From positions 1 to 64,000 of the forward strand of contig JAGCYM010000092.1 of NCBI GenBank assembly GCA_017960805.1: a stretch of 64,000 bases of DNA, read 5' to 3'. The DNA is from Ruminococcus sp. (GTDB taxonomy: Bacteria; Bacillota; Clostridia; Oscillospirales; Ruminococcaceae). The notes under the pieces were generated by a model. The model saw nothing but the letters and a program-made list of their open reading frames with translations, searched no databases and was not told the origin of the DNA. This document shows positions 33,786-57,590 of this stretch, in pieces (the stretch's first letter is position 1; each line of letters starts with the position of its first letter). A program made the position numbers and the translations under genes.

Positions 33786-33809
33786 GGCGCGGACAGCTGC
33801 GTCCGCGCC
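33786..33809 (-). terminator. Terminator of the radical SAM-dockerin operon
   Basis: Perfect GC-rich arms GGCGCGGAC / GTCCGCGCC with a six-base loop; on the minus strand a T-rich stretch follows. Confidence 0.8.
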
Positions 33810-33913: not shown

Positions 33914-34597
33914 TTATTCTTCGGAAGGAACATCAGGATAAACGGGAAGATCATCCTGGCTGAGGACTCCTGCATCTACCTGCAGGACAGTCAGTGCGTC
34001 CATGGCTGTGATGCCGCTTCCGGGCTCATAGCAGTCTGCGTTGCTCTGCCCACTGCGAATCGGGTATTGGTCTTTGTTTGCGATGTACTGCAATATCGCA
34101 ACAGAGTCAGAAACAGAGAGCTTTAAATCTCCGTTAGCATCTCCATATGGCGGCGGCGTTGTGACAGCATACATAGTACTTCCTTCTGTACGTGTAACTT
34201 CCCATTCAGTTGTTGATTCGATTATATCACCAATGAGAGGTGTAGCTGTTGTCGTGCCTACCATAGTTGTTGTTGTATCAACGCATGTTCCTTCTGTTAG
34301 AGTTTCCTCAAATGCAGTAGTCGTAGTAGTTGTGGTCGTGTTGACCTGAGTCCCCATTAAATATGTGCCTGTTGTTGTCGTAGTCGTAGCCTCGAATGTG
34401 CCTTCCAGAACTGTAGCCTCTTCAAATTCCGAGCGGTCAAGAGCAGTAGTAACTGGTTCTGTTATTGCATCAGGATTAATTGCAACACCAGCTGTACGGA
34501 CCTGTTCCTCTGCAGAGGAAGCGTTTGCGGCACCGGCAGAAGCACTGACTGCGGCAGTGGCTAACAGTGCTGCAATTTCTTTTGTGAATTTTCTCAT
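33914..34597 (-). CDS. Thr-rich secreted dockerin protein, translationally coupled to a radical SAM enzyme
   Basis: 227 residues. Signal peptide MRKFTKEIAALLATAAVSASAGAANA, then about 110 residues of low complexity with two Thr runs (TTTTTTG and TTTTTTTTA), one isolated Cys (GTCVD) and acidic stretches. A type I dockerin follows (DANGDLKLSVSDSVAILQYI and the weaker second repeat GSGITAMDALTVLQV, with a Cys in NADCYEPG). There is no enzyme domain. Its ATG overlaps the stop of the radical SAM gene (ATGA), and its SD GGAGG lies within the last codons of that gene, so the two proteins are probably made together. It may be the substrate of the enzyme; this is inference. Confidence 0.8.
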   Translation of the reverse strand: MRKFTKEIAALLATAAVSASAGAANASSAEEQVRTAGVAINPDAITEPVTTALDRSEFEEATVLEGTFEATTTTTTGTYLMGTQVNTTTTTTTTAFEETLTEGTCVDTTTTMVGTTTATPLIGDIIESTTEWEVTRTEGSTMYAVTTPPPYGDANGDLKLSVSDSVAILQYIANKDQYPIRSGQSNADCYEPGSGITAMDALTVLQVDAGVLSQDDLPVYPDVPSEE

Positions 34598-35577
34598 CCT
34601 TTCATACCTCCATTTTCTCTAGTTATTATTTCGAGTGCAGTTAGAATTTGCACTTGTTCTTCCATACAAGCGGCTTCCGAAATGTCTTTAAGTGTGCCTG
34701 TTGTTGCCATTTTCCTGCAGGCGCAGGAGTTACGACAATATTCTGCTATCTCGCATCCGCTGCAACGTTCTGAGCGAGCTGAATAATCGGGATGATTTTC
34801 TCTTGCCTTGTCAGCTCTGATACCAACAAAAATATCACCGCAGCGATATTCTGTCAGATTCTGGAACTGTACGCATGGGTAGAAGTTCCCATCCCAGTTT
34901 ATGAATATCTTCTTTCTGCATATCTCGCACAAGTGCGTTTCCTTTTTTCTGATAGCATTCTTTTTGGTTTCAAGTTCAAATACGAACAGATTTGGTATCT
35001 CAGCGATCTTGCGCCATTGTTCTCTAAGAATATCACCTAACCGGTCAGGATCATCAGTTACAAGGAAAGAATCCATTACTGCGGATACTTTTTTAACCCC
35101 CAGATTTTTCAGATATAAGACATTATCATACAGATCAGGAAGGGTCTGTTCAGTGTATACCAGTTGCACAAGAGTCCTTGGCTGGTATTTGAGCAGTATT
35201 TTCAGGTTAGAATCAAGTAATGAGGTATCGACTCCGCGTTCAGTACATTTGATACCGTCGTGAGACATATTGATGATTATGTTTTTCCTCTCAGCGCACC
35301 ATTTGATAAACTCTTCGTCCAGAAGAGTACCATTGGTTGTGATGACGAAACGGTTAGCCTTGATCTTTTCGCAGTAGTATTTTACGATGTCCTTATAGAG
35401 GAGAGGTTCACCGCCAAAAAGATATACTGTATCCGCGTCATTACGGTTTATAATGAAATCGGATATCTTTTCTCTGGTTTCGTCACTTATTGAGCCGTAT
35501 TCTGTATTAAGGTGCCTTTCATAGCAATAGCTGCATTTCAGGTTGCATTTGTTTGTAATGCTTATAGTATAGTCCAT
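34594..35577 (-). CDS. Radical SAM protein with SPASM domain (peptide-maturase type)
   Basis: 327 residues, cytosolic. The radical SAM cluster motif CNLKCSYC lies near the N-terminus, followed by LFGGEPLLY and FVITTNGTLL, typical of the SPASM-containing subgroup. The C-terminal SPASM region has many Cys (CEIC, YPC, CGD, CSGCEIAEYC, CACRK and a last Cys), enough for two auxiliary iron-sulfur clusters. Such enzymes modify peptides (thioether or C-C crosslinks) or activate sulfatases (anSME). The N-terminal ITNKCNLKCSYCYERHL resembles the peptide maturases more than anSME. No sulfatase is nearby; the only partner is the overlapping Thr-rich dockerin gene. SD GAGGTGA precedes the ATG. Confidence 0.85.
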   Translation of the reverse strand: MDYTISITNKCNLKCSYCYERHLNTEYGSISDETREKISDFIINRNDADTVYLFGGEPLLYKDIVKYYCEKIKANRFVITTNGTLLDEEFIKWCAERKNIIINMSHDGIKCTERGVDTSLLDSNLKILLKYQPRTLVQLVYTEQTLPDLYDNVLYLKNLGVKKVSAVMDSFLVTDDPDRLGDILREQWRKIAEIPNLFVFELETKKNAIRKKETHLCEICRKKIFINWDGNFYPCVQFQNLTEYRCGDIFVGIRADKARENHPDYSARSERCSGCEIAEYCRNSCACRKMATTGTLKDISEAACMEEQVQILTALEIITRENGGMKG

Positions 35578-35618: not shown

Positions 35619-35647
35619 ATTATAATGATACACAATAAAAAAATCAA
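35619..35647 (-). promoter_or_regulatory. Sigma-A promoter of the radical SAM-dockerin operon
   Basis: Minus-strand TTGATT, 17-base spacer, TATAAT; the start codon follows about 42 bases later. Confidence 0.75.
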
Positions 35648-37575: not shown

Positions 37576-38535
37576 TCAGAATGATGTCTTTATAATTCCG
37601 CGTTTTGCAAGCTGGATATACAGACGAAGACGAGCTTCATCCCTGCATTCCGGCTTCACCATATAATACATGTAGTGTTCCATCAGATTGAACAGGTCTA
37701 TAGTTCTTCCTTCTATCTTGAACTGTTCAAATCCCATCGGTATATACTTGTCCCAGATCGCGTCAGGAGAAATATGACTGCTCAGCTTACTGCTTTCGAA
37801 GATTGTACGATCCATGCATCTGCATCCGAAAATCGCTTCATTCTGATACTCAGCGTACTTCGGGAGCTTGGTGAAGTCAAAGTCGGTATTAGGGTGCTTC
37901 TTTATGTGCTCAGCGTACGCAAACTGTTCTGCTCCGATCACACGGTAATGCTCGGAACGGAGTTTGCACTGCGGATTGCAGCACGCGTTTACAAGAAGCT
38001 CACATTTCTTCTTGTCCTGTATTTTTTCAAGTGCTTCAAAGTTGTTGTTCAGATCATAGTCTATTACGACAATATGATAATCCTTCCCGATCTCTTCATA
38101 GAGTTTGTCAGGATCGGTTATGCGCTTGCAGGTTGAGCTTGTTATCTTGTAGTTCGGATAGTTTGTACGTATATATTCTTCAAGTATCGGCGAAGCGACG
38201 ATGACCTCATTCATGCCGTTGTCAGCTAGGTGCATTATCATATTGCAGTAGTCATCTGAGAGATGCTTCTTTTCAATGAGAGGGTTTGTGAAAGTGAAGC
38301 GGAGCGGTATCCCGCGGTCGTTGAATGACTTTATTACTGTCTTTATGAAATTCTTGTCGCAGATCCCGTACTGGAAGCGTCCGCCGTTCCAGATGGCGGG
38401 CGGAAAAGTTCCGTATACTGAGGCTATCTCAACGCCTTCGCGGAAGTAGTCAGGAAAGAGCCTGAGCATTTCCGCGAAGATCATATTGAAACCGTAGTGC
38501 TTGCTGAAATCAGGAAGATGAAAACGTGCTTTCAT
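37576..38535 (-). CDS. U32-like iron-sulfur protein, paralogue A
   Basis: 319 residues, similar throughout to the next gene (about half the residues by eye). The late motif GFEQFKIEGRT matches the KIEGR signature of the U32 peptidase group, and a Cys cluster (ELLVNACCNPQC) sits where U32 members bind an iron-sulfur cluster. These suggest a TIM-barrel protein of the U32/RlhA/UbiU kind rather than a true protease. Several such proteins act in hydroxylation of RNA or quinones without oxygen. Spacing to paralogue B is 9 bases. Family assignment is tentative. Confidence 0.55.
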   Translation of the reverse strand: MKARFHLPDFSKHYGFNMIFAEMLRLFPDYFREGVEIASVYGTFPPAIWNGGRFQYGICDKNFIKTVIKSFNDRGIPLRFTFTNPLIEKKHLSDDYCNMIMHLADNGMNEVIVASPILEEYIRTNYPNYKITSSTCKRITDPDKLYEEIGKDYHIVVIDYDLNNNFEALEKIQDKKKCELLVNACCNPQCKLRSEHYRVIGAEQFAYAEHIKKHPNTDFDFTKLPKYAEYQNEAIFGCRCMDRTIFESSKLSSHISPDAIWDKYIPMGFEQFKIEGRTIDLFNLMEHYMYYMVKPECRDEARLRLYIQLAKRGIIKTSF

Positions 38536-38544
38536 GGTTGCTCC

Positions 38545-39483
38545 TTATCTGTATGTGAGAGCGCCGCTGTTCTCAAGTGCCTTGAGCAGTGTAAAGCGTG
38601 CTTCGTCGCGGCATTCCGGTTTTGCCATATAGTACATGTATGTCTCAAGGATATTGAGTGCGCTTGCTGTACGTCCCTCGATCTTGAACTGCTCGAATCC
38701 CATGGGAACATATTTCTCCCAGATATCATCAGGAGAGATATGAGTACGAAGGTTTCGGATCTCAAAAAGTCCTCTCTGTGAGTAAGGACAGTCACGGAAG
38801 TGCTGAGGGTCATATTTATCTGGATTGAAAGGCATTCCGGGATGCTTCTTTATGTGTTCGTTGTATGCTATCTGCTGTTCGCCGATGCAGTGGTAGTGTG
38901 CGGAGCGGCGGGGGCATCCTGGCTCACAGCACGCGTTTACAAGAAGTTCGCAGTCTTCCTTGCGAGGCAGCTTTGAGAGCACATCGAAGTTGTTATTGAA
39001 ATCATAGTCCACAACTACGATACTGTAATCCTTTCCGAGTTCTTCCTCAAGCTTTACAGGATCAGTGATGCGTTTGCATGTTGAGCTTGTGAGCTTGTAT
39101 TTAGGATAGTTCTTGCGGATATAATCCTCGAGCAGGGGAGAAAATACAATAGCTTCATTGAGTCCGTTGTTTGCAACATTCATTACCATATTGCAGAACG
39201 GATCTGAGAGATGCTTTTTCTCAAGCGCTGGATTCGTGAATGTAAATCTGAGCGGTATTCCACGGCTGTTGAACGCCTTGAGGACTTCCTTTACGTATGC
39301 GCTGTCGCATACACCGCCCTGTGTGCGTCCGCCGTTCCAGATCGATGGCGGGAATACACCGTAAAATGATGCGATCTCAACTCCCTCACGGAAAAACTCA
39401 GGTTTGTTCTTGAGCATTTCCGCGAACATGAGATTCAGATGATAGCGTCCCGAGAAATCGGGGAGATGGAATCTTACTCGCAT
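38545..39483 (-). CDS. U32-like iron-sulfur protein, paralogue B
   Basis: 312 residues. Starts MRVRFHLPDFSGRY and shares with paralogue A the blocks FREGVEIASFYG, PSIWNGGR, GIPLRFTFTNPALEKKHLSD, LTSSTCKRITDP, ELLVNACCEPGCPRRSAHYH and GFEQFKIEGRT. It adds Cys residues in HCIGEQQ and FRDCPYS. It lies 20 bases downstream of hydE. The pairing of two U32-like proteins recalls UbiU-UbiV and similar pairs that work as heterodimers. Confidence 0.55.
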   Translation of the reverse strand: MRVRFHLPDFSGRYHLNLMFAEMLKNKPEFFREGVEIASFYGVFPPSIWNGGRTQGGVCDSAYVKEVLKAFNSRGIPLRFTFTNPALEKKHLSDPFCNMVMNVANNGLNEAIVFSPLLEDYIRKNYPKYKLTSSTCKRITDPVKLEEELGKDYSIVVVDYDFNNNFDVLSKLPRKEDCELLVNACCEPGCPRRSAHYHCIGEQQIAYNEHIKKHPGMPFNPDKYDPQHFRDCPYSQRGLFEIRNLRTHISPDDIWEKYVPMGFEQFKIEGRTASALNILETYMYYMAKPECRDEARFTLLKALENSGALTYR

Positions 39484-56530: not shown

Positions 56531-57590
56531 TAACAGCAGCGTTGTGGAGTCAATAAAAATGGTTGATGAGAAGGAAACTACTACATCATCAGAAACATCA
56601 ACAAGCGCTACGACAACAGTGACTACAACAACCGGAATCGTAACATCGGAATCAACGTCAGAGAGCGGATCTGAAACAACTGTAACAGTTACGATCACTA
56701 CAGTTGCTTCAAGCGTAACAACAGCTTCAACTTCTCAGGAGACAACAGAATCATCCAGTGTGGTATCATCTGCAACGCTTACAAGTGCTACAGTATCAGA
56801 TACTACAACAAGTACTGCTCAGACCGAAAGCGAAACAACTGTTTCATCTCAGCAGAACGGTACTACAACAACTATAACGAGTACCGCCGGAGATACAACG
56901 TCCGCTTCTACAACTGCAACATCTACACAGAGCGCTGCATCTACAACGGTGACGACGTCTGATAGAACAACTATGAGTGAAGGTTCAACTGAGACAGGAA
57001 CCACGACTGTATCTACTGAGTCAGATACAACGACCACGACAGTATCAGAAACAATCCCAGCAGGTTCTGATACATCAACCAATACATCTACAGTAGCTAC
57101 TACTTCAACTGCATCAGATACTACAAGTATCATAAGTTCAACTTCGACCACAGCTGTTTCAGGTTCAGCAACTGTTGAGAGTTCGACTTCAAGCGCTGCA
57201 GGTTCATCCGTGACCACGACTTCAACAGAAAGTTCTACAACAGCTTCTTCAACACAGACGACCACAGCGGCAACATCTACAGAGCCTGTAACAACTACAA
57301 CGACAGAAGGCGGAGATAAACCGGAGATTCCATATAACCTGGGAGATGTAAATGAGGATGGAAAGGTAGATGCAAAGGATGCATCACTCATACTCGTAGC
57401 ATATGCAAAAGCGTCAACAGGAGGAGAAGACGGATTTACCGAATTTCAGAAGCTTGCTGCGGAAGTAAACGGAGATGGAAAGATAGACGCTAAGGATGCG
57501 TCGTTTGTCCTTGCATACTACGCGATGGTATCGACAGCATCAGGAGATGTTCCATCACTGAAAGAATTTGTGGGATCTAAAGCAATATAA
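56478..57590 (+). CDS. Ser/Thr-rich dockerin protein, front end apparently lost
   Basis: Up to 370 residues; the start is uncertain. There is no signal peptide and no SD, and the first 20 or so codons overlap the complement of a dockerin fragment. From about residue 31 some 250 residues are almost only Thr, Ser, Ala, Val and Glu, a long linker. The C-terminus is a full type I dockerin (DVNEDGKVDAKDASLILVAY and EVNGDGKIDAKDASFVLAYY). Such a layout normally has a secreted catalytic domain before the linker. Probably a rearranged remnant, though a recent fusion cannot be excluded. Confidence 0.6.
   Translation: MLISAVAGSTVIDSQLMYNSSVVESIKMVDEKETTTSSETSTSATTTVTTTTGIVTSESTSESGSETTVTVTITTVASSVTTASTSQETTESSSVVSSATLTSATVSDTTTSTAQTESETTVSSQQNGTTTTITSTAGDTTSASTTATSTQSAASTTVTTSDRTTMSEGSTETGTTTVSTESDTTTTTVSETIPAGSDTSTNTSTVATTSTASDTTSIISSTSTTAVSGSATVESSTSSAAGSSVTTTSTESSTTASSTQTTTAATSTEPVTTTTTEGGDKPEIPYNLGDVNEDGKVDAKDASLILVAYAKASTGGEDGFTEFQKLAAEVNGDGKIDAKDASFVLAYYAMVSTASGDVPSLKEFVGSKAI

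Follow-up and report, generated by a model that had tools for sequence, protein, structure and literature searches.

A radical SAM/SPASM enzyme gene and an adjacent dockerin-protein gene as a candidate enzyme-substrate cassette in Ruminococcus

The gene pair and its recurrence across genomes

The window analysed here is a stretch of 64,000 nt from Ruminococcus sp. (GCA_017960805.1, contig JAGCYM010000092.1, positions 1-64,000, forward strand). On its minus strand, a gene for a radical SAM/SPASM enzyme (34594..35577, an ORF of 327 aa) is directly followed by a gene for a Thr-rich secreted dockerin protein (33914..34597, an ORF of 227 aa), which is the proposed substrate and is called here the partner. 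As the first-pass annotation had described, the stop of the enzyme gene and the start of the partner gene overlap in an ATGA (34594..34597, minus strand), and the ribosome-binding site of the partner, a GGAGG read from the sequence 9 bases ahead of its ATG (34607..34611, minus strand), lies in the final codons of the enzyme gene. Also in agreement with that annotation, just these two genes are enclosed by a promoter-like site, TTGATT-17-TATAAT (35619..35647, minus strand, read 35647-35619; 10/12 positions), and a strong intrinsic-terminator-like hairpin of 10 pairs (33786..33809, minus strand, read 33809-33786), both being consensus matches only; promoter-like matches in the region exceed chance to some extent only (11 found versus a shuffled mean of 6.7, sd 2.7). 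Elsewhere in the window, two tandem paralogous genes were noted at 37576-38535 and 38545-39483 (319 and 312 aa, beginning MKARFHLPDF.. and MRVRFHLPDF..).

A search for the same pair across Ruminococcus genomes, suggested by the first-pass annotation, found it in all 34 enzyme-bearing genomes of the genus and at 43/43 orthologous loci. The situation that the annotation had named as contrary to its reading, homologs lying mostly beside sulfatases or other peptides, was not what we observed, the gene directly downstream of the enzyme being the partner in each of the 43 orthologs. These orthologs (L037-L079, 56-80% identity over the best segment) were counted among the best 80 of 150 stretches (77 loci), and the neighbourhoods of seven of the remaining 34 loci were read as well (L080, L081, L082, L085, L086, L087 and L091). 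The partner was also visible in listings made without the leader filter at 42/43 loci, the exception being L070, which ends 47 residues into it. Judged by the start positions, enzyme and partner genes overlapped by four bases at 25 loci, were spaced between -17 and +19 at 15, and lay +91 to +94 apart at three. The upstream ORFs of 41 loci (mechanical ORFs of at least 100 aa) fell into 34 clusters, and a same-strand upstream ORF was found within 60 bases at only 1/41 loci; the upstream neighbour thus changes from locus to locus, and conservation is confined to the pair. The arrangement seen in the window, recurring in this manner, is not a chance one.

Within the genus, the enzyme was present in 34/125 genomes (E 1e-20) and the leader DNA pattern of the partner in 32/125, with one match each and always next to the enzyme; these genome counts, like those of the family below, cover related genomes, and the occurrences are not independent events. 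The two genomes with the enzyme and no pattern match (G056 and G118) have coordinates that match the L044 and L051 contigs; the partners there start MRKFIKEI and MRKFTREI, and all 34 enzyme-bearing genomes thus have a partner. Conversely, the pattern was found in 0/91 genus genomes without the enzyme. At the family level, where 8 genomes from four genera have a dockerin-clade enzyme, it occurred in 7/297 genomes; each of the 7 is one of these 8, and the eighth (G310) carries the leader MRKFTNEI. Together, these 8 genomes hold 10 dockerin-clade copies, of which 8 are paired; L189 (1483-2493) and L190 (1501-2487), diverged second copies in the related genus g96, have no partner within the fetched flanks. 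A second leader-pattern match in G412 (L221) looks spurious, as no ORF of at least 40 aa begins there. Around 1677-1850 of L091, all that is left of the enzyme is its first 34 codons, after which comes, in a different frame, a dockerin-like tail; this looks like the trace of a single deletion that took most of both genes, that is, a joint loss. The pair is an accessory of a cellulosomal genus, in which 119/125 genomes have a cohesin; on the same figures (119/125 versus 34/125), cohesins were ruled out as the cause of the patchy spread of the enzyme.

The partner protein and its glycine cores

The partner starts with the leader MRKFTKEI (34574..34597, minus strand), which opens the signal peptide and is the proposed recognition element. 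It is near-invariant, K3, F4 and I8 being kept in 44/44 partners and T5 and K6 in 43/44; the partners were collected with a pattern demanding M-K/R-K-F-T/I-K, so that positions 3-6 were preset, and the unfiltered listings agree. Downstream of it come a Thr-rich linker (34148..34513, minus strand) with seven glycine cores (G37, G66, G82, G103, G114, G123 and G139; G77 is doubtful) and a dockerin-like module (residues 151-204; 33986..34147, minus strand), which scored 14.5 bits against a Pfam cut-off of 22.9. When ten orthologous partners were tested for the Pfam dockerin, six were over the cut-off, three below it and one was without a match. By eye, the dockerin of L040 roughly fits VxIMQxxxNP and ALxIQKxxL, the R. 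flavefaciens group 1 patterns printed in PMC2930009. Among orthologous loci, the partners vary widely in length, in the style of the repeats, in the dockerin and in the C-terminal domains, and several carry extra sequence or domains beyond the dockerin.

The first-pass annotation had stressed two Thr runs and two Cys, one in the linker and one in the dockerin. The Cys are indeed so placed (residues 105 and 189) and the Thr runs of at least 4 residues are in fact three (71-76, 87-94 and 108-111). The emphasis on Cys was not sustained by the orthologs and we set it aside as a key feature: Cys is absent from 24/43 linkers (e.g. L061 and L053), CX3[D/E] is present in 4/43, and what the linkers have in common is a repeated glycine core. 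The substrate motif of anSME-type enzymes is C/S-x-P/A-x-R; scanned for in the partners only, it occurred in 0/44. Counts over 44 (leader and motif) include L070, whose partner is a 47-residue fragment, and linker counts (43) omit it; L070 was also kept in the linker-style survey and dropped from the close-pair, core-context and lipoprotein-core comparisons. The counts include partners truncated at a contig end (L038, L043, L063 and L073), and the automatically set end of the linker lies too far along in L052, where it reaches the protein end, and in L077, where it takes in a folded insert.

The glycine-centred cores can be written as hydrophobic-[A/I/V/M/E]-G-[T/V/D/E]. The 43 linkers had a median of nine G sites (range 3-19) with a spacing of 16 residues (quartiles 11 and 21). 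In 254/407 cases, against a background of 27%, G was preceded by A, I, L, M or V; T (18) and P (7) showed a depletion of more than five-fold at this position. In 14 close pairs, G was the most conserved linker residue, with 109/125 positions kept versus 297/438 for T (p 9e-6 for the difference), 156/217 for P, 83/150 for A and 59/130 for V, counts that the BLOSUM alignment tilts towards glycine matches. Synonymous codon change at kept residues was similar for G (34/109) and T (101/297). We also compared the Thr-rich stretches of the partners with a control consisting of 30 of the 105 dockerin matches, in all frames, of the same genome. The partners displayed 7.1 G per 100 residues versus 3.0 in the control, and A, I, L, M, V or E preceded G in 175/244 versus 13/52 cases, the control being small (52 G sites). 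Two linker styles were recognized, one with Thr runs and the other of the PPLAGxPxPPDEYIE type, and L060 and L074 have both in one protein, which indicates that the shared element is the core and not its setting. The window codes for another dockerin (57339-57512, L158), whose long Thr/Ser-rich stretch is without a glycine core.

The enzyme and its relatives

The window enzyme passed the Pfam Radical_SAM model (63.2 bits, cut-off 29.5) and the SPASM model (22.0 bits, cut-off 21.5). The radical SAM CX3CX2C triad corresponds to C11, C15 and C18 and, like a seven-Cys SPASM set (C220, C235, C272, C275, C281, C285 and C304), is conserved in the alignment, the SPASM seven-Cys pattern being CX9-15GX4C / CX2CX5CX3C / C; over 44 aligned rows, 15/16 Cys of the enzyme show a conservation of 97% or higher. 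Its AlphaFold2 model (pLDDT 90.7) depicts a radical SAM barrel, and the nearest solved folds were anSME (E 2.1e-18, TM 0.78) and 5why (E 2.2e-18), with 5wgg also close. By sequence, the best PDB match was 5wgg/5why, of the SCIFF maturase type (76.4 bits). This chain aligns only from its residue 102, so that the window enzyme is without that N-terminal part and, with the barrel of the model starting at residue 2, would be devoid of an N-terminal peptide-recognition (leader-binding) domain. PapB (NF047865) was the best curated match at 112.1 bits, under its cut-off of 340; the scores for the anSME family (54.4 bits, cut-off 349.45) and the SCIFF maturase (TIGR03974; 80.9 bits, cut-off 425) were also short of the threshold, and the FibroRumin maturase (TIGR04136, cut-off 400 bits) was absent from the 25 best families of the enzyme, the last of which scored 41.1 or 41.4 bits. 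C111 was considered as an epimerase-type hydrogen donor and set aside: it is invariant in 27 aligned orthologs, but missing from L189/L190 and, by eye, not at the same place in L080, L082 and L186-L188, and the solved epimerase EpeE was a far weaker fold match (E 1.2e-5 at best).

To get insight into the relatives of the enzyme, a tree of 46 enzymes was built in which the orthologs are represented by 16 of their 44 sequences and PapB, SCIFF maturase and anSME by none; its root serves for drawing only, and L206 and L199 are flagged as long branches. The 21 rows of the dockerin clade (support 100/100) grouped with 18 PapB-like enzymes from other Clostridia (96/98), and seven enzymes of the RiPP type stood apart. 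Inspected by eye, 16 of these 18 had a lipoprotein-like gene close by; the secreted neighbour of L082 was without a lipobox, and none was seen for L199. No clear partner was found among the neighbours of L199, L202 and L208. Enzymes of this lipoprotein clade scored higher on PapB (202 and 233 bits), still below 340. The genus also has enzymes of about 30% identity (L174-L178), which belong to two-radical-SAM RiPP clusters with other peptides and which we discarded as uninformative on the pair; L175, L177 and L178 also have an S8-protease-like gene, short Cys-bearing peptides (MKIEKI..) and, in part, an ABC transporter gene.

Cores such as LAGDV, LDGEV, LEGEA, LMGET and IAGGM were found in the lipoproteins of g77 (L186-L188), g330 (L209-L214) and L194, and those of L205 and L206 have one LAGD each. 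Weights derived from the dockerin linkers ranked lipoprotein sites over other window glycines with an AUC of 0.75 (97 versus 1166 sites) and over position-permuted copies also with an AUC of 0.75 (44 sites). The reverse test, from lipoproteins to linkers, gave an AUC of 0.64 versus window glycines and was weak versus permuted sites (0.58); a few sites ahead of the lipobox were included in the permuted and reverse comparisons. In the comparison of 97 versus 1166 sites, L188 was read from residue 30 with the leader included, and L187, nearly identical to L186, was left out. The likeness between lipoprotein and linker cores is thus moderate, and it supports the core as the putative modification site without proving it. 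Most lipoproteins of one sub-branch are without repeated cores.

The lipoproteins of this clade, which are unrelated to the dockerin partners, are of several kinds. In L210-L214 (g330) they are small, encoded one to three in tandem just upstream of the PapB-like enzyme (e.g. 2548-2877 and 2912-3280 in L212), and have LxG cores and a leader like MKI[TD]P[AK]K[ND]YKKPLYAIG; this type possibly represents a larger class of radical-modified lipoproteins. Those of L080, L195-L198, L200, L201 and L207 have a leader like PVKKYAPPKYP and no repeated cores, and display instead an HGxGRGSFGCxSVAPP-like (HGxGxxxGC-like) or HHGG-like element.

Proposed modification and comparison with known systems

We believe that the most plausible explanation for these results is a dedicated enzyme-substrate cassette, in which the dockerin protein would be modified at multiple sites, at or beside the core glycines, before export, and we put its probability at roughly two in three. 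That the dockerin protein is the substrate is very likely, and the glycine cores are probably the sites of modification. As in RiPP-type pairs, a conserved leader appears on an adjacent, co-occurring putative substrate. The suggestion of the first-pass annotation that the dockerin protein is a product of the enzyme is well supported by the strict pairing, the co-occurrence, the conserved leader and the conserved glycine cores, and it stands as a prediction from sequence.

The partner has a signal peptide and the enzyme has none, so that modification should precede export, and the gene overlap would bring the two products together. Contact with the co-translated partner would take place in the cytosol, ahead of Sec export, probably through recognition of the conserved N-terminus MRKFTKEI by the enzyme. 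The unfolded linker would be modified repeatedly at the hydrophobic-[A/I/V/M/E]-G-[T/V/D/E] cores with no need for a substrate Cys. As no element varies less than the glycine and the residue ahead of it, the simplest proposal is a hydrogen abstraction at these positions; the change might be an epimerisation, a C-C or C-O link, or a dehydrogenation. The modified stalk would then be exported and docked by its dockerin to a cellulosome scaffoldin or at the cell surface, where the modification could serve to stiffen or protease-proof it. The wider proposal, a Cys-independent radical SAM chemistry at many glycine cores of a cellulosome stalk, with the same lineage treating lipoproteins in other Clostridia, is in our judgement evenly balanced.

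Other readings were weighed against this cassette. The two proteins might cooperate while the enzyme acts on a different substrate, be it a scaffoldin, some secreted enzyme or a peptide not seen here, and the cores would then be structural or binding motifs. The tie between enzyme and cores does appear indirect, and L189/L190, without an adjacent partner, suggest that action on distant proteins happens or is possible in this clade. However, the pair has no other conserved neighbour, the leader pattern and the enzyme occur together, both genes were seemingly lost together in L091, and related enzymes also adjoin secreted repeat-bearing proteins, so that we regard this reading as unlikely. The partner could also be a multi-core precursor, with modified repeats cut out as small peptides (signals or antimicrobials) and the dockerin as a mere holder; repeats of about 16 residues with a median of nine G sites per linker resemble multi-core RiPP precursors, and the related g330 lipoproteins are small and partly in tandem. 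This we find improbable, as conservation next to the pair, examined on the upstream side, extends to neither a protease nor a transporter, and several partners extend beyond the dockerin with sequence or domains.

The first-pass annotation had itself offered an anSME-like activator, making formylglycine in a sulfatase or a similar enzyme. While anSME is, with 5why, the nearest solved fold, the family score (54.4 bits versus 349.45), the absence of the motif from 44/44 partners and the presence of the partner, rather than a sulfatase, directly downstream in 43/43 loci make this hardly credible. Quite improbable, too, is a PapB-like ranthipeptide maturase that would join the thiol of a Cys in the dockerin protein to a side-chain carbon of an Asp/Glu in the same protein, even though PapB is the best curated match of the window enzyme (112 bits) and a better one of lipoprotein-clade enzymes (202 and 233 bits), the window linker has one Cys, and PapB itself is described, in the part of the source available, as a multi-site maturase acting on six CX3D/E sites (PMC9413430). 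All these scores remain under 340, CX3[D/E] is found in 4/43 linkers, and, as 24/43 linkers are free of Cys, the reaction in general cannot be thioether formation with Cys.

Literature searches, which did not extend to bioRxiv and most subscription papers, disclosed in the text available no description of a radical SAM enzyme paired with a dockerin protein or of a cellulosome component made by such an enzyme, and the word "radical" is absent from the available parts of two cellulosome papers (PMC2930009 and PMC4081043). Radical SAM enzymes with their own substrate encoded next to them are already known; what appears new is the class of substrate and the Cys-free core. If the cassette reading is true, a component of the cellulosome would be a radical-SAM product, and maturation of the peptide type would take place on a large surface-displayed structural protein, at several to many sites and with no thiol. 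On the wider proposal, in which lipoproteins of other Clostridia are included, radical maturation of surface proteins would be a wider strategy than known. The claim is directly testable, since the fetched loci with the pair include those of eight named strains of R. flavefaciens (Y1, ATCC 19208, YAD2003, YL228, MA2007, MC2020, YRD2003 and XPD3002).

Among known systems, anSME resembles the window enzyme in fold and acts on an export-destined protein, being the precedent for a SPASM enzyme with a secreted target, and differs in family score and in the motif that is missing from 44/44 partners. The structures 5wgg/5why, which we take to be the SCIFF maturase CteB, a sactipeptide-type enzyme, are alike in fold and are the best PDB sequence match; in contrast, the family score is 80.9 versus 425 bits, the window enzyme is without the N-terminal part, and the partner is not a Cys-rich peptide. 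With the R. flavefaciens cellulosome dockerin proteins, the partner shares the signal peptide and linker, to which a dockerin-like module is added, whereas no such repeat protein is named in the available part of that description (PMC2930009). PapB, in the available part of its description a compact SPASM enzyme of about 330 aa with a dedicated substrate and several sites per substrate (PMC9413430), is alike in these three respects, but the window enzyme reaches only 112 bits of the required 340 and the substrate here would be a large secreted dockerin protein. The nearest clade in the tree is that of the PapB-like lipoprotein enzymes (L080, L186-L188 and L194-L214), which also have a secreted neighbour with a leader and, in g77, g330 and L194, LxG cores; their neighbours differ in being lipid-anchored, encoded mostly upstream and provided with a different leader, and the enzymes are 28-33% identical.
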